Assembly: GCA_022842065.1 (NCBI GenBank)
Contig: JALHQH010000090.1
Span: 1 to 18,673, forward strand
Length of the DNA stretch: 18,673 nucleotides
Direction of reading: 5' to 3'
Source: Caldilineaceae bacterium
GTDB taxonomy: Bacteria; Chloroflexota; Anaerolineae; Caldilineales; Caldilineaceae
Made by a program: the position numbers and the translations under genes. Below the pieces are notes generated by a model. That model was not told where the DNA came from and did not search any database. It worked only from the letters and a program-made list of their open reading frames with translations. The first letter of the stretch is position 1. Each line of letters begins with the position of its first letter. Of this stretch, positions 1-18,605 are shown piece after piece.

Positions 1-3000
1 GTCACATTGTCGAGCTTGATCGCCACCTCCTTGAGCGTTGCGCCTGCCTCAGCGGCGACGGTGACACTCACCGCGTTATTCGCCGCCACAAAGCTGCCGG
101 CGGTCGGGTTGACGATGACGGCGAGGGGTGCGCCGGGGGCTGCGGCGGCTGCTACGCCACGGTTCATGGTCTGACTGTCCACTGCTGCCGCGACTGTCGC
201 TGTCGCAGCTTGCGCACAGCGGCCAAAGGCATCACACGCACTGGCATTGGCGGCTGGGTTGGGACTCGTCGTCCAGAGGGTGTAGGAGATGGCCAGCCCG
301 GTGCGCAAGGTCAGATCCGGGAAGAGCGCTTGCAGCGCGGGGATGCTTTCAAACGAACGGACGGGTTCGGCCAGGCCGAGGCCAGGGCAGGTAAAGCTGC
401 TTTCGTCCAGATTCCGGTCCTGCACCCCACAGACGAATTGCACCGCATGACGCAGCGTATCATCCGCGGTATCGGTGTAGGTCGCCCCGGTCGCGGTCGC
501 CGTCATGACCACGCGCGGGTCACGGGTGTCGATCATGCCGCGCCAGAGGCCGGAGGTAATGCTCACGTTGCCGAGCAGGTCCGTGCCACGTAGGTCAATC
601 TGGTAAACATTCTCCAACCCGGCTGGAATGGCAACACGCCACGTGGTTTGCGCCACACCCGCGCCGCGTTGGGCCAGCGTGACTGGCGTCCAGGTCCGGT
701 TGAGTTGCGCTTCGGCCTCGGTGCTGGTAATGTTGCTGGGCAGCGCCGCAATCTGCTCAATCGGCGTAAAGGCGATCTCTGCTTTGTCGAGGCCGATAGT
801 GCTGTTGGTGTCACTGATGACGCCGCCGATAGTGATGGTCTGCGTGATCGTCTCGCGTGTACTGTCGCTGAGGCTGAGATTGGCGACCGGGCCGGTGGCA
901 TCCAGATGCACAAGGATTGGCGTGGCGATCCCACGGTTGCCCGCGTTGTCGTCGGCCTGCACCGTCACCGTGTAGCTGCCGGTCGGGTCATAGAGGCTGG
1001 GATCGAGCAGGTAGTTGATGGACCAACTGCCGCTAGTGGCGGGGATCACCTGTTCGCTCTGGGCGATGCCTACCTTGCTCTGTTGGTGCAAGCGCATTCG
1101 CACCGACCCCGGCTTGACACCAGCAGGGTTGTCGTCGATGGTGCCGCGCATGGTTACTTGCCATTGACCATTGGCCGCTCTGGTCGGCTTAATGGACTCC
1201 GGCTGTGCATCAATCCGCAGCACCGGGCCGGTGGTGTCGATGCGCAGTCGTCGAATGCTACCCGAAGTGACATCGCCGACATTGCCTACGCCATCCGTTG
1301 CACGCACGCGCACATTGACATCGCCGCTGAGACCGGCCAGCGAGAAGCTCCAACTCTCCAGACCAGTGGCCGGCTGCCACGGGCCATTGTTGATACTCAC
1401 CTCAACCAGGCCAACACCGGCGCCGTTGTCGATGGCGGTGCCACCGATTACCTGATCAGGGCCGATGACTGCGTTATCGGCAACGGTCGTGATGCTCGCC
1501 AGCGGACGTTCGTTATCGAGAATCAGCTTCAGCTCATTGCCGGCTGTGAGCCGCCCGCCGCGTGGGTCTTGTTGGCGTACCGTGAGCTTGCCCCACTGTA
1601 GATTGGCACCATCGGTGCCGGCGGCGCTTGCCACACAGTAGGATTGCGTGGTGCGATTCATCAATGCTTGCACACTGTTCTGGTTCAGGGTTGCCGGAAA
1701 GATCTGGAGCTGATCAATCACCCCGGTCAGCAGCGCCAGGGTATTGTTGCGGCTCTTGCCCACAAACAGATCCGGTGCGCCGGTCAGGCTGAGATTCGCC
1801 GTACCGTTGACACCGAACACCGTCGCGCCGTCGACATAGCCTTCGACACGGCCGGTGATGTGGTTGCGGCTAACGGCAATAAAGTGCCACTGGTCGTCAT
1901 CGACGCGCACCCCGCCCAGGCTATTGACTCCCGGTGCCGTAAGCGCCAACTGGCCGTTGTTGAGCCAGATGTGGAAGCCGGCGTTCTGCCCAATGCCGCC
2001 GTCGATCAGCATCAGTTGCGCATTGCGGCGCGGCATTTTCAGCCAGAAAGCAATCGTGAAGTCATTCTGCACCGGGCGGTTGAAGCGTAAGCCGTCGTTG
2101 CTGCCGTCGAAGCGCACTGCATAGTCGGAGAGCGGTGCATTCGGCGCGCCGGCCAGCCCTGCCGCCGGACAGGTGGTTGCCCCCCCCTCACAGGTGGCGT
2201 TGAAATCCCGGCCTGAAGCATCGGCGAAGCTCGTCGCGCCTGGCAGTTCTTCAAAACGCAGTTCCGTCACGGCCACCGATTGGGGGGCGGGACAGGCCAG
2301 TGCGCCGCTGGCATAAGTGCTGCCGGCGGCCAACACAAAGGGCGCCGCCCCTGCCGTTAGCGGTGTCAGGTCGCTCAGATCGGATTGCAGTGGATAGCTG
2401 CTCAGATTTGGCACATCATACCAGCCGACCAGCCAGCCACGCGTGACCGGATGATAGACGGCGAAGCCCTGTTCCAACCCGCTGCCAAAGTCGCGGGTGC
2501 CAAGTGGGGTGAGGTTGGTGAGACTTGGATAGAGGACCACCCGGCCGGTTGCATTGGTGCTGCGGATGTAGCTCATGAGCCAGCGTCTATTCGTCGGGTC
2601 ATAGGCCAACTTTGGGCCATAGTCCGGCAGCAGGCTGGTGGTCGCCGTGGCGTCGTTGACGAGCAGCGTCCAGTCGCCGAGCGCGCTCCCGTCGGGATTG
2701 AAGTCGCCATAATAGACATCGGCGGTCGTCAGTTGCTTCCAAAGCAGCCGGTAGCGGTTGCCCACCCAGGCGAGATCAAGCGAAAGGCGGGCACCGGCGA
2801 CGGGTATGGCCACGGTCGCCGCCGTCCGGGCGCTGTTGCCGATCGCGTTGCCGGCGCGGTCAAAGGCTTGGGTCACGATCCAGGTTGCGGTATCGAGGGT
2901 TGCACCCTGGCGGGGGACGACTTCGTAGGCGACCAGGAAGCCGTCGCCGTTGCTCGCCACCACAGGATGACGCATTTCCAGCTTAAAGATCGTCGACACT

Positions 3001-6000
3001 GGCGGGCGGGGGAAGGTGACATTGCTTTGCCGCACGCCATCGGCGTTGAGCAACGCGCCGGCAACAAGAATGTCGTCCTTGACCGGCACGGTGACGTTGA
3101 CCTCGATCGTGTGGCCGGCACCGCTAAAGCTGAGGGTTTCATTGGTGCGGGCCTGGAGCGGGGAAAGGGCAAGATTGCCGACGGCCTCATCGACGCCGCC
3201 GCCGTCCGATTCCCAAACATAGAGCGGAAAGTTATCGCAGAAAGTAAAGGTCAGGGGGAAGCCAAAGGCATTGGGGCCGCGCTGATCACCGGCGCGCATA
3301 TCATTCGTGCCGCCGGCTGTGTCCCAGCGCCAGATCTGGTTCTGGCTGCTGGTGCTACCACGGGTGAGGAATGGCTCAATGCCATTGTTCACATCAGCTG
3401 CGGCGGCAACCACTTTGAGCGAGTGAATGGTGAGGGTGTTGCAGAGATCCTCGCGCTCCCAGGCCGCCAGTATCGTGCCGTTGGTGTTACTAGCCAGCGC
3501 AGGGGCTGATTGGCCGCGCAGAGAGTAGCTGCTGCCCGTATTGTTGCTGTTCTCCAAGATCGTCGCCGCGCCACTACTGAGGTTGTAGCTGCGCACGTCG
3601 CCATTGGTCGGCTGCGTGGCATTAGCAACCAAGGAGCCAAGTAGATAACTATCCTGACGGTCGGCGCCGGCGGCAGTCAGGCTGCTGTTGCGGGCGCTGA
3701 AGGGGGCCGTAAAGCCGCCCAGTGCTGCGCCCGTCGCAACCGGATCGCTTACCCAGCCGGAAGCGCCGCTACGCTGCAGCCGCGTGCGCGCACTGCTCAA
3801 CAGGTCAAGTGGCTGGAGGTTGGGGCCACCGCGCACGATGAAGTTGATGCTCTGCGTCACAGTTTGGCTGGTGCTAAACGTCAAGGGGTTGAAGCCCAAC
3901 GCCAGCGGTAGCAGGGTGAAGCCTTGATCGGAGAGCGTCGTTACATCCAGCACACCAGGTTCAACCGGCACACTGGCGACAACCGTGCTGGTGTAGTAGA
4001 GGCGGGTATCCGGGCGCACATAGCCGTTGAGGGCGTTGCTCTCCACAAAGACGGCCAGCGGCGGTGTGTTGACCACCTGCGGATGGTAAGGCACGCCCAG
4101 CCGGTCGCGCTGCAACGCCGGGTCGGGGTTGGCGGCCAGCTCCTTTTCCGCCTGGTCGCTGACGCCGTCGTCGTCGCTATCGGCGCGCAAGGGATTGGAT
4201 GCAACCCAGATCGTCTGCACCGGCCCACTGTCGATTGTCACCTGCCAGCCGCCGTCCCAGGTGCTGGTGGGATTGCCAGTGGCGTCGGCCTGCTGTCGGC
4301 GCACCTCCACACCATCGGCCAACCCGTCATTGTCACTGTCAGCGATGGCGGGGTTGGTGTTGTATTGCGCCTCTTGTTTGTCGGTGAGGCCGTCGTTGTC
4401 GGTGTCGCGCTGGATGGGGGAGTAGGGAATGCCGGCCACCCGCTGTTCTAACTCGAAGCGGTCACTCAAGCCGTCGCCGTCGCTATCCCACAGGGTGTCG
4501 TTGGGGTCGGCGCCGTTGTAGACGGGGCCGCGCAGACCATCGCCGTCGGCATCGCGCAGCGACGGGAAGCGCGCGTCCCACGTTTGGCCGATGCCGCTGT
4601 CGCTTTTGTTGCCCAATGCCACAAAGCCAGCCAGGGTAGGCGGGAAGACATCGTACTTGATGACGGTGAGCGGCGTGGTATTCGTACTCTCAAATTCACG
4701 GGTACGGCAGATCGGCGTAGGAATGATGATCGGACCATACGGAATCGGCATGAGCCAACATTCATAGGCGGGTACGGCAAAGTTCATGGTGATGCTGAAA
4801 GGGACTGTGCTGTTGATACCCTGCATCAATGGCAGTCCCGTCAATGGGGGTGGGGTGATGCCGGCGACGCCGCGATACATGGGGGTCGCCACATATTTGT
4901 GATCTTCGCGCACATCCTGCCAGGCGCCCGCCATCTGGTTGAGATCGACAGGAACAGGGGCGGCCGCGCCTCTGCTCAAGCCATACTGGAAGGTGCTGGC
5001 GCGCAGGTTATCGGGTGAGAAGAAATAGAGATAGCCGTTAATATAGAGACCGGCGCTGGGGTCGGGGTCTTTGTGGACGACCGTGGTCGTGATCGGCAGG
5101 CTAAGGCTCAAGGTGTTGGCCGGCACATAGCCTTTGCTGGGATCAGCCAGGGCAATGGCAGGCGCGCCGGTCACCATCAGGTCCGAACGACTGGTGTCGA
5201 TCATCGGTTCGTAGTTGTAGAGGAAGTAGGCGATCACCTTGGTGGCGGCGGTCGTGACCGTGAAACAGGCACCGCCCAGGAGGGGCGCGTTGCGCAGTTC
5301 CTTTACCCCTAACTCGCAAGTCAGGGTGAGGATAAAGTCGATCAAGGTGAGAATACCCACGATGATTGCGCCAGCGATCGACGAACTGAGTGCGACCAAG
5401 AGGACGGCAATCACGGTAGCCGCGACCGCCTCGGCAAACGCTTTATTGAGTTCAGGGCTGCCGGCACCATAACCGGCCGTGGCAGCGCCGTAGATAAAGA
5501 AGCCCCAAATCACGGCCACTGAGACAGCGAGACCGACTGCCCCGGCAATCTTTCCGATTCGGCTAGTTAAGTTGAACGTTGTCACCAATTTGGTGAATGA
5601 CGCCGTTTTATTTCCGGCATTGTAGAACGACACGATGGTCATAGCAGGCAGCACGACCGAGACCCCGGTCATGATCGTTGCCGACATGACACCTAGTACA
5701 GTGCGCGCGGTCGGATCAACTGGACTTAAGGCGACCGCCTGCGCAATCACTTGGATGATGCCGCCCACGATTCCAGCTAAACCATAGATTGCCATTTTTT
5801 TAGGCAGCTTAAAAACCGGGTCTAATTTACTGTTTGTTGGGACGCTATCACCAGCCTTTGCGCCTAGCGCGTCAATTTTCGCATTGAGCTTCTTTAAATC
5901 CTTGCCTGCTTCAGCAATCGAGGCTTTGATGAGTGCCGCCCATGATGTGTCGCCTCGATTGGGCCGAGACGTAGCGCCGATCAACAACCGCTCGTAGGAT

Positions 6001-9000
6001 TGCCTTGCCAATAGTGGCACCGTCGCAAGACTATTGATCACTGCACGCACGGCGGTGGCCGTCGTTGATTCACCCTCTTGCGAATAGCGGCTGGAAACGA
6101 TAGTGGCGCCCTCTTGGACCTGCGCAGCGTAACCTGCACTTAGGCTGGCGAAGAAGAGTATGGCAAAGGCCATGCGTCCCAGCACAAGGTCTGGATCATC
6201 GTCGTCAGGTTCAGCCGGCAGGGTGGCATAACGCTTGGCAAATTCACTCGCATATTCGTCGCTGGTGCAAGGACGCCAGGTGACGCTGCCGGCGCTTGCC
6301 CCACAATAGGCTGCCCATTTGATGGTGGCTGTCACGCCCACCGCGACTGTGCGATCTGGGCCGGGGGCCATGTCTAGCGTCAGGTTGGCACCGTTCTGGG
6401 CAGCGTGGCCTTGGCCTGCGGTTAGATGATCGAGGCCCACGGCACGCGCTGCGCTCTCTTGCGCAAAGAAGAGCAGTGGCTTAATCGCATTGTCGGCCAA
6501 CACCGGCGTCTTAAAGGCGCTGTCGAGGGTTTTGACCGTTTCGGTCATGGTGGTGGCTGCCACGGCTTCATCAAGTGTGGTGTAGTTGTGGGTCACCACT
6601 TGTAGGATGTTGGGGAGGTCAAAGCGTTGGGCAGTGCTGGGGTTGTTATCACGATCAAAACGCGTAGCCAGGTCAGCTACTTTCAGATCGCGCTGACCGT
6701 CATTGTTCAGGTCGCGTGGGCGAGTGAGGTGCTCTTCGAGTACATAGGCCAGCCCCCAGAGCGCTTCATCGTCCTTCTTGTTGGGATCGACCGCTGGGTC
6801 TTCATAGACGATGGCCATGCTGGTGCCGTGGTCTTCATTGACGGTCAGGCCAGTCAGCGTCCAGGTGTCATAGTAGCTGTGGATCGCGGTCGGCTGGTTG
6901 TAGCGATAGCCATTGCCGTCGCCGGCCCGTTGACAGCCCTGCGCGGCGGCATCGGGCGCGTCTAGATCGCAGGGTAGATCGACCAACGCCTGCACCACCC
7001 AGGCCAGGCGGACGCTGTGCGGTGTCGTCCAACTGCCCGTCGGTTTGTAGCGCATCTGACCGCTAAAGGCCACCCGTTCGCCGGTTTGGGCGTCAGTGAC
7101 GATAGCAAGCGGGACGTAAGCCACTTTGGTGGCACCATCGGCGGTAAAATCGTTGACTGAAATGTTAAAGGGGGTCAACTCGGCTTGGCTGGGCAGATTG
7201 GCGCTGCTGTTGGGAATGCGGATCTCCAACATCGGGACGAGCTTCATGTCGCCGTTCGTTTCGCTGGCGTCGGCGGCGCGGCCCTGGCTAGTGGCGACAT
7301 CGGCATAGGTTTTGCCGTCCACATCGCGCACCTGGGCTTCGCTGTCCTGGGGCCAATCGAGTACATTGTAGGCAAACCAAAGATTTTTCGGGTCACTAGG
7401 GCGGAGCTGAAACTCGACAAAGGTCGGTTTGTCGGCAGTCAAGTTGCGCAACGTTAGTTGCAGCGGTGCCGCTTCACTGTAGGTCGCGCCACCTTTGGCA
7501 TAAGGTGCCAGATCCACGCGATCAGGTACATTGTCGTTATCATTGTCGGGGTCAAAGAGATCGGGCAGCGTGTCGCCGTCGGTGTTAAGCGGGCTGGGAC
7601 GCAGATTGCCTGCCGCATCAAGCCCCCACTCCAACAGGTCGGGCTGACCGTCGCCATTGCTGTCAGTCACGGTCGGATCGGTGTACCAGGTCTGCCCGCC
7701 AAACGGGAAGCCACGCACCTCAATCTCATCAGTAAGCGCATCGTTGTCCGTGTCAGAGATGATTTCGCTGGTGCCGATGCGGAGTTCGGTAAAGTCGGTC
7801 AGGCGGTCGCCATCGGTGTCTGTCCCGGGGTCGGTGAGTTGGGCTAAAGGCGCGATCTGGCGACTAGTTTCCAGCGTCGGCGCTTTCATCGCCACTCGCT
7901 GGTCGCCAGTCTCGAGTCTCTGCTCTCCGATCGCCAACGGGTTCTGATGCGGGTCAAATTCACGCGGCGGGAGCATGGCGGTGCGCAGGTCGCGCACGTC
8001 GTCGGCCGCGCGCGCTTCTGCTGCCTGGGCGGCGGCTTTGGCGGTGTGCGCATCAAAGAAGCGCACCTGGGTTGTCGTCGTTAGAAGGGGGCCGACAATC
8101 TGGCTAATAATGACCGCTGTCACCAGGGCAATCTGCACCGTGCGGCTGCGCCGTTGCCTGATGACGGCAAAGGCGGCCACGCTCAAGCTCAAGACCAACC
8201 AGAGGGGTGTGAGATCGGGGAGGCGCGTGGGTAGCACAAGCCAGGCACCCTGCCAGTCGCCGGCGCGCAGCAGCGTCAACAGCGACTGCTGCACGGCACC
8301 ATAGTGGCTAAACGTAACCGTAAGCGCAAGCTGCACCCGCTCTTCCTGCTGCGCGGGAAAGTGCAAGTCCAGCACTTGGCGCACGGGCAGACCATCGGTG
8401 CCGACCCAGAGTTCGCCCGTGCCGGTCATCTCGCGGTAGTAGGCCGGCGCTTCTAAGGCAACGCCGGGTGGCAATTCCCCCTTGGCCCGCAGCGCGGTGA
8501 CCAGTTGCTCGTGTAAATACGCCGCATAGGCGGGGCCGTCGATTGTAAAGCGGTAGCGCGTAAAGCTGACGCCATTGCGCGTCTCGTGTTCGCCTGTCGT
8601 CACCTGGCGAATCGCCGCCAGATAGCCCAGGAAATCACCTTGTGGGGCAAAGCTCTCCGTGATGCTGTCGATCACTTCCCACGGTTGGCTGCCCCGACGG
8701 GCAAAGGTTTTACCCTCCGCCGTGCGGATGCTGACGCCTTGTTCGGCATTGAGGACGCTGCCGCCCTCTGACCAAAGGGTCAGTGCTATGGTCTGGTCGC
8801 GTAGATTATTCTGCCCTTCCAGATAGAATGCTTCGGCGCGGCTGGTGCGTCCCACATTGCCGAGGCTGGCGACCGGGATCGTTTTCTGCGTTACATCGCT
8901 GGTGAAGTGATATGACCCGGCCGCCTGGGCCTTTTCCCACGCGGCGGTCACCGGGTTGGGAGCGCGGAACGGATTAACGACATCGCTGGCTTGCGGGGCG

Positions 9001-9107
9001 AATCGGCCAAGGGCAGCCAACAAGCCAATCGCCACCAGGACGATTGCGATCCGCCAGCCCAGCCGGCGGTGTGTGTGGGGGGGGAGCGGTGATGCTGATA
9101 TTGTCAT
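1..9107 (-). CDS. Giant multi-domain surface protein (TSP3, LamG, Ig-like), 3'-truncated by window edge
   Basis: One open frame runs from ATG at 9107 to base 1 without a stop (3035 full codons visible; the C-terminus lies outside). I checked the frame at about 9107, 7619, 6710, 5795, 4493, 3215, 2108 and 5. Domains by residue: hydrophobic anchor 18-34; LppX/LolA-like extracytoplasmic domain about 50-290 (LWVGTDGLPVRQ near 236); membrane helices about 299-316 and 322-341; thrombospondin type-3 calcium repeats about 427-533 (TDGDRLTD, DSNGDGQPD); central membrane block about 1105-1260; second TSP3 cluster about 1521-1661 (DSDGDGLSD, DSDNDGLAD, DSDDDGVSD); propeller-like repeats about 1860-2240; LamG/ConA-like 2281-2486 (VRFDGSNDGL, FTIAFWLKM); then Ig-like modules. 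An in-frame TAA at 9126-9128 makes ATG 9107 the first start; the ribosome site is weak (AGAAAG). A calcium-dependent adhesin or envelope scaffold is an inference. Long plus-strand frames here are antisense shadows. Confidence 0.93.
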   Translation of the reverse strand, partial: MTISASPLPPHTHRRLGWRIAIVLVAIGLLAALGRFAPQASDVVNPFRAPNPVTAAWEKAQAAGSYHFTSDVTQKTIPVASLGNVGRTSRAEAFYLEGQNNLRDQTIALTLWSEGGSVLNAEQGVSIRTAEGKTFARRGSQPWEVIDSITESFAPQGDFLGYLAAIRQVTTGEHETRNGVSFTRYRFTIDGPAYAAYLHEQLVTALRAKGELPPGVALEAPAYYREMTGTGELWVGTDGLPVRQVLDLHFPAQQEERVQLALTVTFSHYGAVQQSLLTLLRAGDWQGAWLVLPTRLPDLTPLWLVLSLSVAAFAVIRQRRSRTVQIALVTAVIISQIVGPLLTTTTQVRFFDAHTAKAAAQAAEARAADDVRDLRTAMLPPREFDPHQNPLAIGEQRLETGDQRVAMKAPTLETSRQIAPLAQLTDPGTDTDGDRLTDFTELRIGTSEIISDTDNDALTDEIEVRGFPFGGQTWYTDPTVTDSNGDGQPDLLEWGLDAAGNLRPSPLNTDGDTLPDLFDPDNDNDNVPDRVDLAPYAKGGATYSEAAPLQLTLRNLTADKPTFVEFQLRPSDPKNLWFAYNVLDWPQDSEAQVRDVDGKTYADVATSQGRAADASETNGDMKLVPMLEIRIPNSSANLPSQAELTPFNISVNDFTADGATKVAYVPLAIVTDAQTGERVAFSGQMRYKPTGSWTTPHSVRLAWVVQALVDLPCDLDAPDAAAQGCQRAGDGNGYRYNQPTAIHSYYDTWTLTGLTVNEDHGTSMAIVYEDPAVDPNKKDDEALWGLAYVLEEHLTRPRDLNNDGQRDLKVADLATRFDRDNNPSTAQRFDLPNILQVVTHNYTTLDEAVAATTMTETVKTLDSAFKTPVLADNAIKPLLFFAQESAARAVGLDHLTAGQGHAAQNGANLTLDMAPGPDRTVAVGVTATIKWAAYCGASAGSVTWRPCTSDEYASEFAKRYATLPAEPDDDDPDLVLGRMAFAILFFASLSAGYAAQVQEGATIVSSRYSQEGESTTATAVRAVINSLATVPLLARQSYERLLIGATSRPNRGDTSWAALIKASIAEAGKDLKKLNAKIDALGAKAGDSVPTNSKLDPVFKLPKKMAIYGLAGIVGGIIQVIAQAVALSPVDPTARTVLGVMSATIMTGVSVVLPAMTIVSFYNAGNKTASFTKLVTTFNLTSRIGKIAGAVGLAVSVAVIWGFFIYGAATAGYGAGSPELNKAFAEAVAATVIAVLLVALSSSIAGAIIVGILTLIDFILTLTCELGVKELRNAPLLGGACFTVTTAATKVIAYFLYNYEPMIDTSRSDLMVTGAPAIALADPSKGYVPANTLSLSLPITTTVVHKDPDPSAGLYINGYLYFFSPDNLRASTFQYGLSRGAAAPVPVDLNQMAGAWQDVREDHKYVATPMYRGVAGITPPPLTGLPLMQGINSTVPFSITMNFAVPAYECWLMPIPYGPIIIPTPICRTREFESTNTTPLTVIKYDVFPPTLAGFVALGNKSDSGIGQTWDARFPSLRDADGDGLRGPVYNGADPNDTLWDSDGDGLSDRFELEQRVAGIPYSPIQRDTDNDGLTDKQEAQYNTNPAIADSDNDGLADGVEVRRQQADATGNPTSTWDGGWQVTIDSGPVQTIWVASNPLRADSDDDGVSDQAEKELAANPDPALQRDRLGVPYHPQVVNTPPLAVFVESNALNGYVRPDTRLYYTSTVVASVPVEPGVLDVTTLSDQGFTLLPLALGFNPLTFSTSQTVTQSINFIVRGGPNLQPLDLLSSARTRLQRSGASGWVSDPVATGAALGGFTAPFSARNSSLTAAGADRQDSYLLGSLVANATQPTNGDVRSYNLSSGAATILENSNNTGSSYSLRGQSAPALASNTNGTILAAWEREDLCNTLTIHSLKVVAAAADVNNGIEPFLTRGSTSSQNQIWRWDTAGGTNDMRAGDQRGPNAFGFPLTFTFCDNFPLYVWESDGGGVDEAVGNLALSPLQARTNETLSFSGAGHTIEVNVTVPVKDDILVAGALLNADGVRQSNVTFPRPPVSTIFKLEMRHPVVASNGDGFLVAYEVVPRQGATLDTATWIVTQAFDRAGNAIGNSARTAATVAIPVAGARLSLDLAWVGNRYRLLWKQLTTADVYYGDFNPDGSALGDWTLLVNDATATTSLLPDYGPKLAYDPTNRRWLMSYIRSTNATGRVVLYPSLTNLTPLGTRDFGSGLEQGFAVYHPVTRGWLVGWYDVPNLSSYPLQSDLSDLTPLTAGAAPFVLAAGSTYASGALACPAPQSVAVTELRFEELPGATSFADASGRDFNATCEGGATTCPAAGLAGAPNAPLSDYAVRFDGSNDGLRFNRPVQNDFTIAFWLKMPRRNAQLMLIDGGIGQNAGFHIWLNNGQLALTAPGVNSLGGVRVDDDQWHFIAVSRNHITGRVEGYVDGATVFGVNGTANLSLTGAPDLFVGKSRNNTLALLTGVIDQLQIFPATLNQNSVQALMNRTTQSYCVASAAGTDGANLQWGKLTVRQQDPRGGRLTAGNELKLILDNERPLASITTVADNAVIGPDQVIGGTAIDNGAGVGLVEVSINNGPWQPATGLESWSFSLAGLSGDVNVRVRATDGVGNVGDVTSGSIRRLRIDTTGPVLRIDAQPESIKPTRAANGQWQVTMRGTIDDNPAGVKPGSVRMRLHQQSKVGIAQSEQVIPATSGSWSINYLLDPSLYDPTGSYTVTVQADDNAGNRGIATPILVHLDATGPVANLSLSDSTRETITQTITIGGVISDTNSTIGLDKAEIAFTPIEQIAALPSNITSTEAEAQLNRTWTPVTLAQRGAGVAQTTWRVAIPAGLENVYQIDLRGTDLLGNVSITSGLWRGMIDTRDPRVVMTATATGATYTDTADDTLRHAVQFVCGVQDRNLDESSFTCPGLGLAEPVRSFESIPALQALFPDLTLRTGLAISYTLWTTSPNPAANASACDAFGRCAQAATATVAAAVDSQTMNRGVAAAAAPGAPLAVIVNPTAGSFVAANNAVSVTVAAEAGATLKEVAIKLDNV

Positions 9108-14841: not shown

Positions 14842-16587
14842 ATGCCGAGTCTAAAACTCAAGAGTAACCACAAAGCCGTCACCACCTACTACGCCGAGAT
14901 CAACAATCTAACCCAGTTGCGCATGTTTGGGGAAGGCGCGGTCTCCCCCGCCTTTGCCGGGCTGTTGCGCGCCTGTGCCACCCAGTTCCATTGGACACTG
15001 GTCGAGCAATATGCGCTGAAACGCGATGGGCGTAATCTGCGTGTGGATGGCGCGCTGGTCGATGCCTTTAACCTGGTGCATGGCTACTGGGAGGCCAAAG
15101 ATAGCGGCGATGACCTGGCCAAAGAGGTGCAGAAGAAGCTGCAAATTGGCTACCCGCGCGACAATATCCTCTTTCAAGCACCAGAGCAGATTATCCTCTG
15201 GCAGAATGGCCGCGAGGTGCTACGTAGCGACATTCGCCAACCCGCAGCGCTGATCGAGGTCTTGCGCACGTTCTTTGAATATCAGCCGCCGGCCTATGAA
15301 CAGTGGGAAGCTGCGGTCGGTGAATTTAAGGGGCGCGTGACCGAGATTGCGCGCGGCTTGCTCGATATTATTGAACGCGAGCGACGGGAGAATCGGCGCT
15401 TTATCGACGCCTTCACCGCCTTTACCGAACTCTGTCGTAAGGCAATCAATCCCAATTTGTCACCGCAAGCAGTCGAAGAGATGTTGATCCAGCATATGCT
15501 CACCGAGCGTATCTTTCGCACTGTCTTTGCCAACCCCGATTTTGTTGAACGCAATGTGATCGCCCACGAGATCGAAAAAGTGGTGCAGGCGTTGACCGCG
15601 CGCCAATTTAGCCGCAGCGAATTTCTCAAGCCGCTCGACCGTTTCTACCTGGCAATTGAACGCACCGCGGCCACGATTGATGACTTCAGCCAGAAACAGG
15701 CCTTTCTCAACACCGTTTACGAGAACTTTTTCCAGGGCTTTTCGGTGAAGGTGGCGGACACCCACGGCATTGTCTACACGCCGCAGCCGATTGTGGAATT
15801 TATGGTGCGCTCGGTGGAGGAGATCTTGCAGCGCGAATTTGGCCGTTCGCTCTCGGATCGTGGCGTCCACATTCTCGACCCCTTTGTGGGGACCGGCAAC
15901 TTTATGCTGCGCGTGATGCGCCAGATCAAACGCACGCGGCTGGAAGAGAAGTATCGCGACGAATTACATTGCAACGAAGTGATGCTGCTGCCCTACTACA
16001 TCGCGGCCATGAACATTGAGCACAGCTACTACGAGTTGACCGGCCACTACGCGCCCTTTGATGGCATCTGTCTGGTCGATACCTTTGAACTGGCCGAGGA
16101 GCCGCAAGCGGGCTTTGACTTCTTTAGCGCCGAAAACAGCGAACGGGTGCAACGCCAACAGGCCGCCGACATCTTTGTTGTCATCGGCAACCCGCCCTAT
16201 AACGCCTGGCAGCTCAACGAGAATGATAACAATAAGAACCGCAAATATCCGCGGCTCGACCGGCGCGTCAGCGAGACTTATGCCAAGGATTCGGCGGCGA
16301 CCAACAAAAATGCGCTTTCCGACCCCTACGTCAAAGCCTTTCGCTGGGCGTCGGATCGAATCGGCGACGAGGGGATTGTCGCCTTTGTCACCAACAACAG
16401 CTTTATCAACGACATCGCTTTTGACGGCATGCGCAAAGGGTTGGCCCAGGATTTTGACCAGATCTATGTGCTGGATCTCGGCGGCAATGTGCGCAAAAAC
16501 CCGAAATTATCGGGGACGACGCACAACGTTTTTGGTATTCAGGTGGGGGTTAGTATTACGATATTGGTACGCAAGCGGGATAAGTAA
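14842..16587 (+). pseudogene. Single-chain restriction-modification enzyme, nuclease plus methyltransferase part (target-recognition part cut off)
   Basis: A 581-residue frame covering the first part of a type ISP/IIG-like restriction-modification protein. The N-terminal nuclease-like domain shows D69, then GYWEAKD with E84-x-K86, the PD-(D/E)XK pattern. A helical spacer follows (about 130-310), then an N6-adenine methyltransferase with motif I LDPFVGTGNF (345-354) and motif IV GNPPYN (449-454). The frame ends at TAA 16585-16587, right after GVSITILVRKRDK, where relatives continue into the target-recognition domain. That continuation reappears at 17898 beyond a 1.3-kb insert. Without target recognition the enzyme should be inactive, so I call it a disrupted gene. 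Alternatively the two parts could be expressed as separate subunits, but the second part is also truncated. The start is set by position relative to the promoter and by family similarity from NHKAVTTYYAE onwards. Confidence 0.85.
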
Positions 16588-16645
16588 CAACCCCCATGCC
16601 CAACTGCGGTATGATTGAGAAATATACAACTGTGAAAAAATAGGC

Positions 16646-16651
16646 TATACT
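16646..16651 (+). promoter_or_regulatory. -10 box placed for leaderless transcription of the nuclease gene
   Basis: TATACT ends 5 nt before ATG 16657, so transcription would start at or within a base or two of the start codon. There is no Shine-Dalgarno before this ATG, which fits a leaderless mRNA. A TTGAGA at 16615-16620 is 25 nt upstream, too far for a normal -35 box. Confidence 0.45.
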
Positions 16652-16656
16652 TTATC

Positions 16657-17658
16657 ATGGATGAACACGATGCAACAGCAGCTAATGCAAGCCCAGACAA
16701 CGTCGCGCAAACCACACCGTTACCCCCAAAGCGCACAGACGGGCATGTCTTATTGGGTGGAGTGCAGCAGCCATTGTTGACACCCGTGGATATTACAGTC
16801 GAGACTGAGCCATTGGCGACGCAGAAGCCGCCCAGAATTGACATCTTGTTGCTGCGCCGTAAAGGCAGTTTTTGGACGCCGGAACAGCAAGCGCGTCTGC
16901 CCGATGGTATCCGGCAGAGCCACGCCAGCCATATTTTGTGTGAGTTTAAGTATACAGAGTCAGTTAATGAGTCAGCGCTGTTGCAAGCGCGGCTTTATGA
17001 CCACTTGTATCTCACCTCACGACGGCTCAAGCGCCGCACAGTACAAACCTTTATGCTCAGCTCACATACGCCACAGCGCGATATGTTGGCATATTTCGAG
17101 TATCAGCCGACTGCCTTACGCGGTGTCTATCATAGTCAAGATAAGTGGCTAAAAGCGATCGATCTACTGGTCTTGAACGAGTTGAGTGACGAGCCGCACA
17201 ACGCCTTTTTCAAATGTTTTGCCAGTCGCAAGAAGGCGCGCGAGGCTGCCTTCGCGACAATCGAACAGATGGCGATTTGGACTTGGTCAGAAGAGTTATG
17301 GGCAACGGTTAGTGGGTTGCATACGGTCTTTCAACGGTTAGAAGGAGGAGCGATGAGTGACTATAATTTGACACCAGAATACTTGCGGAAACTAGGGGAA
17401 GGGATGCGCGATCAGATCGTGGCTACGCTTTCGCCGGAAGAACGATTGGCGGGGCTACCGCCCGAGGCGATTTTGTCGCATGTCTCACCCGAGGTGATTT
17501 TGTCACACTTTTCGCCAGAACAATTGTTGGCCGGATTGGCTCCGGAAGTGATTGAGGCCTATTTGCAGAAGCGGAAGCAGCGCGAAACCGCCGAACCACT
17601 GGATAAATCGGCAACCCCGCGCCGCAAAACGAAGAAAACCACAGCACCCTCTAGTTGA
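16657..17658 (+). CDS. PD-(D/E)XK nuclease-like protein with C-terminal nonapeptide repeats (Rpn-like architecture)
   Basis: 333 residues. The nuclease signature is PRIDILLL with D62, CEFKYTES with E96-x-K98, and ALLQARLYDHLY with Q110-xxx-Y114, the full PD-(D/E)XK set. A helical region follows (about 140-230). From 258 come five nine-residue repeats with SPE/PPE/APE at 259, 268, 277, 286 and 295, then a basic tail (KRKQR, RRKTKK). SPEE-type repeats are a habit of Rpn/transposase_31-like proteins, which nick DNA and promote recombination. Family membership here is inferred, not certain. There is no ribosome site at ATG 16657, but AAGGAGGAG stands before an in-frame ATG at 17353, suggesting a second, shorter product. 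The gene sits inside a broken restriction gene in the same orientation, with a decayed antitoxin-like gene behind it. Confidence 0.85.
   Translation: MDEHDATAANASPDNVAQTTPLPPKRTDGHVLLGGVQQPLLTPVDITVETEPLATQKPPRIDILLLRRKGSFWTPEQQARLPDGIRQSHASHILCEFKYTESVNESALLQARLYDHLYLTSRRLKRRTVQTFMLSSHTPQRDMLAYFEYQPTALRGVYHSQDKWLKAIDLLVLNELSDEPHNAFFKCFASRKKAREAAFATIEQMAIWTWSEELWATVSGLHTVFQRLEGGAMSDYNLTPEYLRKLGEGMRDQIVATLSPEERLAGLPPEAILSHVSPEVILSHFSPEQLLAGLAPEVIEAYLQKRKQRETAEPLDKSATPRRKTKKTTAPSS
17342..17355 (+). promoter_or_regulatory. Strong internal ribosome site and in-frame ATG inside the nuclease gene
   Basis: AAGGAGGAG (17342-17350) is close to the perfect anti-16S match and lies 4-5 nt before ATG 17353, which is codon 233 of the nuclease. 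Initiation here would give a protein starting MSDYNLTPEYLRKLGEGM. It is the best Shine-Dalgarno I noticed in the whole window. Confidence 0.65.
17353..17658 (+). CDS. Possible internally initiated C-terminal repeat protein, 101 aa (candidate intragenic antitoxin)
   Basis: Same frame as the nuclease, from Met233 to the shared stop. The product lacks the catalytic domain and holds the helical MSDYNLTPEYL segment, the nonapeptide repeats and the basic tail. In E. coli Rpn nucleases a short C-terminal protein made from an internal start binds and restrains the full-length toxin. The arrangement here fits that model, but the function is inferred only from gene layout. Confidence 0.45.
   Translation: MSDYNLTPEYLRKLGEGMRDQIVATLSPEERLAGLPPEAILSHVSPEVILSHFSPEQLLAGLAPEVIEAYLQKRKQRETAEPLDKSATPRRKTKKTTAPSS
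17428..17562 (+). repeat. 27-bp tandem coding repeat, five degenerate units
   Basis: Encodes residues 258-302 of the nuclease, with proline at 260, 269, 278, 287 and 296 and glutamate after each. The unit is approximately L-S-P-E-x-x-L-x-x. Such repeats probably fold as a short solenoid or a binding arm, and their copy number may vary between strains. Confidence 0.75.
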
Positions 17659-17704
17659 TAACAAGCAGGGCTGGGGCAGGTGATTTGCCAGGGATTGGGC
17701 AACA

Positions 17705-17929
17705 CGGGTTACTGTTGATCCAGAAATCCTCATGGGTAAACCTGTGCTCCAGTGGACAAGGTTAGCGGTTGCGTTTGTTCTGGATCTGTTGACCCAAGGC
17801 TGGCGCTACAACGAAATGCTGCGTAATTACCCCAGCCTTGAGTTGGCGGATCTTTGCGCTTGCCTGGCTTATTCGCACTTGTCAAGGGACAAACCTGATG
17901 GCGACCATCCACTACGCCCGCTTAGATGA
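17705..17929 (+). pseudogene. Decayed DUF433 antitoxin-like gene
   Basis: From 17705 the frame reads RVTVDPEILMGKPVL, then AFVLDLLTQGWRYNEML, RNYPSLELADLCACLAYS, the DUF433 pattern. DUF433 proteins are small winged-helix-type partners, often beside PIN-like DUF5615 toxins. Here the normal start is missing: a TGA lies at 17681-17683 and the first ATG (17732) is inside the domain. The usual G in the GTR motif is W (QWTR). Similarity stops at about 17875, where the restriction-gene sequence begins, and the frame ends in unrelated residues at 17929. No toxin partner is visible. I regard it as a remnant. Confidence 0.65.
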
Positions 17930-18605
17930 ATTCTGGCGCAAAACCGAGAAATACGCCTTTTTAGAAGAACAGGGCCACGTCGGCAACATCGACTGGCAAC
18001 TTATTGCGCCCGACAAACGCCATAATTGGCTGACTGAAGGGATGCAGGACGAATTCGAGCGGTTTTTGCCTATTGGTACCAAAGAAACCAAAAGCGGTGT
18101 AGCATCAACTGCAATCTTTGAATTGTTTAGCAATGGTGTGAAAACTAATCGTGATGTTTGGGCTTATAACTTTAGCTCGAAGAAAGTTGCTACCTACCTC
18201 AGGCAACTGATTGAAGTTTATAATGAACACGTAAATCGGTTATCAAATATTCTCCCTAAACCCAACCTTGACGACTTTGTTTCAAATGACACTACTCATA
18301 TTAGCTGGTCAGAAGGATTAAAAAATTACCTAGGTCGACAAATTATATTACATTTTTCTGAAAGCGGTATACGTACAGCGCTTTATAGACCGTTTAACCG
18401 AACATACCTCTATTTCGACCCGATTTTGACGGAACGCCGTTATCAGTTTCCAAGTATTTTGCCTAAGAGCGATATCGAATCAGAAAATAGAATCATCTGT
18501 ATAACTGACAAAGGTTCAGAGAAACCTTTCATGGTTTTAATAACCTCCTTAATCCCAATCCCTTCGCCAAGTCAGGGAATGGTGTTGAAAGCTGGTTCAG
18601 AGTGA
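17898..18605 (+). pseudogene. Target-recognition part of the restriction-modification enzyme, truncated at its 3' end
   Basis: The frame from ATG 17898 continues the protein interrupted at 16587: MATIHYARLDEFWRKTEKY, HVGNIDWQLIAPDKRHNWL, then a target-recognition-type region and NRIICITDKGSEKPFMV. An AAGGGA 8 nt upstream of ATG 17898 might allow translation; the frame is also open to ATG 17838. Family similarity stops near SLIP at about 18557. The remaining residues up to the TGA at 18603-18605 look foreign, so the true C-terminus is missing. Base composition changes from GC-rich before about 18070 to AT-rich after it, suggesting that the recognition domain was acquired separately. Confidence 0.75.

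Follow-up and report, generated by a model that had tools for sequence, protein, structure and literature searches.

The window analysed here, a stretch of 18,673 nucleotides from a Caldilineaceae bacterium, carries a nuclease gene in which a second, in-frame start codon behind a strong Shine-Dalgarno (SD) sequence lies at the junction between the nuclease and its tail. What the sequences show is a conserved capacity to translate the tail separately, along with an SD-poor full-length start and a characteristic pattern of losses among homologues. We consider it likely that the gene carries toxin and antitoxin one within the other, as Rpn does, with a nuclease from another PD-(D/E)XK-like family.

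A nuclease frame with an internal start

The full-length frame (16657..17658, + strand) encodes 333 amino acids, the putative toxin or L form. Residues 29-228 (16741..17340, +) make up a PD-(D/E)XK-like nuclease domain in which D62, E96, K98, Q110 and Y114 are conserved, and the window family as a whole has a nuclease core of the PD-(D/E)XK type. In alignment A2 a second invariant aspartate, D83, lies within an LPDGIR motif (118/121, with 3 gaps).

The preliminary description placed an in-frame ATG at codon 233 behind an SD, and both are present. The ATG (17353..17355, +), at the nuclease/tail junction, follows by 2 nt the sequence AAGGAGGAG (17342..17350, +), an SD that is conserved family-wide and whose AGGAGG core (17343-17348) lies 4 nt upstream of the start. 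The predicted short product of 101 amino acids, the putative antitoxin or S form, spans 17353..17658 (+); AF2 models it as helical (mean pLDDT 84.0, pTM 0.38). Within it, five nonapeptide repeats of the SPEERLAGL type were read off the sequence at residues 259-303 (17431..17565, +).

The same description held that the full-length frame has no ribosome site, and the anti-SD duplex is indeed weak at the annotated start (-2.4) compared with the internal one (-11.1). When the full-length start of each locus was represented by whichever candidate had the strongest SD (3 of 71 loci had no candidate), mean values over 68 loci were -2.9 for the full-length and -8.6 for the internal start, with the internal start stronger in 64 of them. 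A further suggestion, that the full-length start may be leaderless, is plausible in part. The promoter-like site TATACA-17-TATACT (16623..16651, +) ends 5 nt before the full-length ATG and could mark a leaderless start, but it was the one such site in a scan of 16400-17900 where shuffles give 1.4 +/- 1.2, and so does not rise above them. That scan revealed no promoter-like site within the nuclease gene, a point against the antidote reading. Across loci, on the other hand, a -10-like hexamer peaks at -12 (fraction 0.09, elsewhere at most 0.04), and by our reading of the hexamer listing the loci concerned are mostly non-Caldilineaceae Chloroflexota, making a leaderless or nearly leaderless full-length start plausible for a subset of loci. 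Because the internal SD is the stronger and the full-length start is SD-poor, production of the long form is probably low, in some cases from leaderless mRNA, with the short form in excess.

The internal start and its SD are conserved across the family

A search with the window protein returned 618 homologues at E<=0.001, of which the 120 listed were aligned to give 121 rows. The codon-233 column is Met in 112 of these, and a Met lies within 4 columns in 116, despite a surrounding linker that is gappy and variable; the 5 proteins with no Met within 4 columns count against an antidote. At the DNA level we scanned one genome per species and kept the best 80 of 115 related stretches. Nine of the 80 loci had too short an ORF and were dropped, leaving 71 loci and the window, or 72 ORFs. 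Of any Mets up to 13 columns away from the window's own, the closest was taken as the junction Met, and actual offsets ran from -1 to +3. All 72 ORFs have a start codon at the junction, ATG in 71 and GTG in one (L065), where the junction residue is a valine preceded by AAAGGAGA; this locus was excluded from the SD means.

The mean SD duplex energy was -8.7 kcal/mol at the junction Met compared with -2.1 at 322 other in-frame ATGs, and values of -6 or stronger occurred at 63 of 71 junction Mets compared with 24 of the 322; the 8 loci with a weaker SD speak against the antidote reading. An SD core was detected in 68 of 71 loci, ending 4-9 nt upstream of the start in 62 of the 68, and its first base falls in all three codon phases (45, 16 and 7; n=68). 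The residues upstream of the junction are widely different (KGELN, PKEEL, TGEEF, LEGGA, VFGGV), and the nucleotide signal is therefore what is kept. In a second batch of loci, from which 31 repeat ORFs were removed to leave 22 distinct ones (5 fell short of the junction and L098 ends before it), Met was found in 16 of 16 scored ORFs and an SD of -6 or stronger in 15.

By record title the loci come from Caldilineaceae and other Chloroflexota, Desulfobacterota, Magnetococcales, SAR324, Thiomargarita/Beggiatoa relatives and Methylococcaceae, the phyla being our own presumed assignments from the organisms in those titles. Whether the internal ribosome site is conserved in homologues had been raised as a check on the original idea; it is, at codon level and across the groups named. 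The internal start with its strong SD is a family trait of this nuclease and not a peculiarity of the window.

The SD exceeds what the protein sequence accounts for

We recoded the eight codons upstream of the start synonymously in 300 trials, weighted by each gene's own usage. The amino-acid sequence by itself already yields a fair SD (null mean -6.6, sd 0.27), a result that counts against the antidote reading and lends some credit to another: that constraints on the protein maintain the Met and a G/E-rich linker, with the SD arising incidentally. We judge this very improbable. None of the 300 recodings attained the observed mean of -8.7, and the excess persisted after thinning to 62, 47, 35 and 23 ORFs (the last at under 50% identity). 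Glycine is written GGA in 62 of 79 SD-zone codons compared with 298 of 1,143 elsewhere (p 1e-20, unthinned set), linker residues vary widely while SD and start persist, and L065 keeps its SD in front of a valine written GTG.

As a control we scored, for every ORF, the best in-frame SD-ATG located 50% to 95% of the way along it, with flanking frames of at least 220 codons for comparison. Sites of -6 or stronger were found in 64 of 72 family ORFs compared with 55 of 197 unrelated flanking frames; at -8 or stronger the counts were 50 of 72 family ORFs, 20 of 197 unrelated frames and 8 of 19 canonical Rpn ORFs. That unrelated frames also hold strong internal SD-ATGs weighs against the antidote reading.

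The short frame outlasts the nuclease

We scored 114 distinct copies clear of contig edges, 13 contig-edge copies having been left out. To count as a start, an ATG or GTG had to lie no more than 10 residues from the junction and have 45 or more open codons after it. The nuclease was intact in 77, a count that includes L054 although its frame shifts after the nuclease; 74 of them had an SD of -5 or stronger, and three (L009, L057, L022) a weaker one. The other 37 divide into 22 that retain the short frame and SD and 15 scored as retaining neither, with L162 wrongly scored as lacking the short frame (it has a Met with an SD of -8.3). The 22 comprise 13 copies whose nuclease is split by stops or frameshifts, 8 that are tail-only or partial, and L164, a mis-scored sister-family copy with an intact nuclease. 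The short frame was thus lost in none of the 77 copies with an intact nuclease, compared with 13 breaks on the other side, an asymmetry that involves few copies, was obtained with the nuclease or the entire protein as search query, and may include some assembly errors among the breaks. The tail accounts for between one quarter and one third of the gene's length, and a pure length effect should therefore break some tails in genes that are otherwise intact; none was seen.

Four loci from Thiomargarita/Thiotrichaceae (L063, L069, L070, L074) have a similar extra stretch at the same nuclease position and a broken frame, and in all four the short frame stays open.

Separate tail frames adjoin full genes in L016, L018, L025, L026 and L164. 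An SD of -6 or stronger precedes the Met in L016, L018 and L164; its absence from the separate frames of L025 and L026 counts against the antidote reading. The second copy in L164 runs from apparent first codons of the nuclease gene directly into the tail region, SD and ATG included, and resembles the stand-alone rpnS copies that PMC10327210 describes in E. coli.

The short product might instead be a positive subunit, extra tail copies helping to assemble an active nuclease complex. Cas11d, for example, is a positive subunit of a CRISPR complex, in proteins unrelated to the window family. Like the tail predicted here, it is a C-terminal protein from an internal start, and PMC10327210 cites Cas10d/Cas11d as such a case. 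A conserved internal start and an SD excess fit this explanation equally well. The persistence of tail frames beside a split nuclease (the 13 copies) and as separate frames speaks against it, because a helper should decay with its nuclease, and some members have a tail in common with Rpn, as detailed below; we regard a positive subunit as unlikely.

A sister family and two types of tail

Genome searches turned up tails behind other N-terminal halves, and one such arrangement led to a sister family. With L164:854-1663 as query, it gave 2,503 matches at E<=0.001, of which 120 were listed; some of the 2,503 may also be among the 618. The junction Met is nearly invariant among 82 aligned proteins. 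In DNA it is present in 27 of 27 ORFs, with a mean SD of -9.3 and values of -6 or stronger in 23, and none of 300 synonymous recodings attained the observed mean (unthinned set); L172 and L213 are doubtful members of this set (25-27% identity), L197_3099 ends at the Met, and several ORFs come from one contig. By hhalign the sister and window families match at 99.8% over the full length and 97.4% over the nuclease part, compared with 0.2-0.3% for either against canonical Rpn (19 sequences). In the sister family (alignment A4, P0121 residues 37-81) D37 and K68 are invariant, the consensus has Thr at the position of the window family's ExK Glu, and the invariant E81 might be a shifted acid.

Both families have two types of tail, with nonapeptide runs or tetrapeptide (REEG-like) runs. 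A period test found nonapeptide runs of 1-9 in the first family and period-4 Gly runs of up to 17 in tetrapeptide members; by chance it also assigns a few nonapeptide members (L040, L045, L058) to the tetrapeptide type, and the L075 tail was partly masked. Among the 8 members scanned, DUF4351 (PF14261) was found in the tail of L072 at 25.6 bits, above the cut-off of 25. It fell below the cut-off in L043 (E 3e-4), L078 (0.004) and L077 (0.013), the value for L065 (0.12) being no evidence, and was absent from the Pfam results for the window protein, L060, L075 and L080. A profile of seven hand-chosen tetrapeptide-member tails matched 5 of 19 canonical Rpn proteins at E 5e-11 to 7e-5 (nominal database of 100,000), with reversed Rpn controls no better than 620. 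Since some tetrapeptide tails match Rpn or DUF4351, Rpn and the window family appear to have tail modules in common, with nuclease halves that are not detectably related.

Genomic surroundings and distribution

The nuclease gene sits inside a broken type ISP restriction-modification gene (halves at about 14842-16587 and 17838-18605). The upstream piece (14842-16584) matches residues 25-578 of the 1029-residue enzyme 7lo5, and the downstream piece (17838-18602) about residues 586-800, stopping at 800 of 1029, with the first residues of this match overlapping and apparently spurious. Because both pieces match the same enzyme, the halves are parted by a stretch of about 1.3 kb that includes the nuclease gene and a DUF433 fragment. 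That fragment (17732-17929, 51.4 bits) follows the nuclease gene and precedes the second ISP piece; it looks like a remnant, as its upstream frame shows no ATG start. Elsewhere, an open frame of 3,035 codons on the - strand (3-9107) runs off the window; the many + strand TTG ORFs over the same interval are probably antisense to it.

These neighbours bear on a third alternative, in which the internal start is real and the tail is not an antitoxin but mainly titrates assembly in a graded manner, as in McrBS/McrBC. The precedent is McrBS, an internally started protein that, when overexpressed, draws McrC away from the active complex (PMC12707154). The window offers no obvious partner, its neighbours being ISP gene pieces and a DUF433 fragment, and the tail homology found is to Rpn. 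Graded titration accordingly strikes us as quite improbable.

The family is patchily distributed. In the order to which a Caldilineaceae carrier belongs, 18 of 46 genomes had it; an evenly drawn sample of 301 genomes from that carrier's phylum contained it once, in the carrier itself. For the order of a Desulfonema carrier the count was 24 of 146 genomes, with matches to the sister family or to the tail alone counted in. Across seven carriers the number of matches per genome ranged from 1 to 36, counting fragments.

A proposed mechanism and its implications

We propose the Rpn-like scheme because the position, strength and conservation of the internal start, the weak long form, the variable repeats, the orphan tails and the partly shared tails all fit it. 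One frame would give two proteins, the full-length nuclease and the tail alone. The former, weakly initiated and possibly leaderless, would consist of a PD-(D/E)XK-like DNA nuclease followed by a helical tail of repeats; the codon-233 start with its strong SD would yield the 101-residue tail alone in larger amount. This tail protein would bind its own counterpart, the same tail within the full-length protein, and keep the nuclease from acting. Phage infection or stress could disturb the balance and release the nuclease, as for RpnS/RpnL, and repeat number may set partner specificity. By analogy with Rpn, we infer translation of the short form in the cell, the relative amounts of the two proteins, complex formation, inhibition and an anti-phage role.

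A broader proposition, which we find evenly balanced, is that antidote tails with an internal start form a transferable module, attached to different PD-(D/E)XK families (Rpn, the window's and the sister family) with start and SD kept at the junction. Nonapeptide, tetrapeptide and DUF4351 tails would be swapped behind the constant start, and repeat number would act as a code for cognate specificity. A large family whose nuclease is not recognisably Rpn, with this design conserved at codon level in several phyla, would mark the intragenic-antidote principle as general and modular; repeat-number specificity could be tested with natural paralogue series (up to 36 matches in one genome, fragments included); and many candidate defence genes are added, mostly unnamed or hypothetical among the matches listed for both families.

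Comparison with known systems

No Pfam, NCBIfam or PADLOC model named the window family in the scans made. Against PADLOC-DB 2.0.0, 44 members gave no match naming the family (best E 0.028; two families, one member each). Viral contigs searched with the window protein alone gave three pattern matches, none a relative, and plasmids gave no match to the family. A sequence search of the PDB gave 6 matches, all to proteasome alpha 7 and all at chance level (E of at least 0.28). A PDB fold search with the short product found no match, which counts against the antidote reading, and no Rpn structure is among the VIA-align matches listed for the full-length model.

Strict membership of Rpn (YhgA-like, COG5464/PF04754/TIGR01784) fails on the nuclease domain. 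None of 44 members matched TIGR01784 at E<=1; L072 gave a match at E 0.24, confined to its tail. PF04754 was found neither for the window protein nor among the 25 listed of 38 Pfam families for the 44 members. The nuclease part scored 0.3% against 19 canonical Rpn sequences by hhalign. The window family reads ExK where 19 aligned Rpn loci read IE(M/V/I)Q or similar, positions that we take to be catalytic residues. Tails differ as well, the window having nonapeptides and Rpn tetrapeptides, and hhalign gave 0.1% for the window-family nonapeptide tail against RpnS, with no detectable similarity, which again counts against the antidote reading.

Another system with an internal start offers a partial parallel. 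In McrBL/McrBS, as in the scheme proposed here, the internally started product lowers nuclease activity (PMC12707154), but McrBS is an AAA+ GTPase domain acting via a separate McrC, whereas in the window nuclease and tail form one chain.

The closest likeness is to Rpn. In the titles and abstract openings searched, an intragenic antitoxin was described only for Rpn, in PMC10327210. That report describes E. coli RpnS as translated from within rpn, binding RpnL, blocking DNA cleavage and relieving toxicity; repeat number influences which protein is inhibited by which, one Rpn system protects against phages, and separate RpnS genes are labelled DUF4351 in some species. It also states that rpn genes are commonly grouped with genes for defence and have no identifiable terminal repeats. 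Like Rpn, the window family joins a PD-(D/E)XK-type nuclease to a C-terminal tail with its own in-frame internal start, varies in repeat number between copies and has separate tail copies; some members also have tetrapeptide repeats, DUF4351 or the terminal tail segment. With a nuclease that is not detectably Rpn, related members bearing Rpn-like tails and separate tail frames, the family fits the suggestion first made from the window, that this is a divergent version of the Rpn principle.
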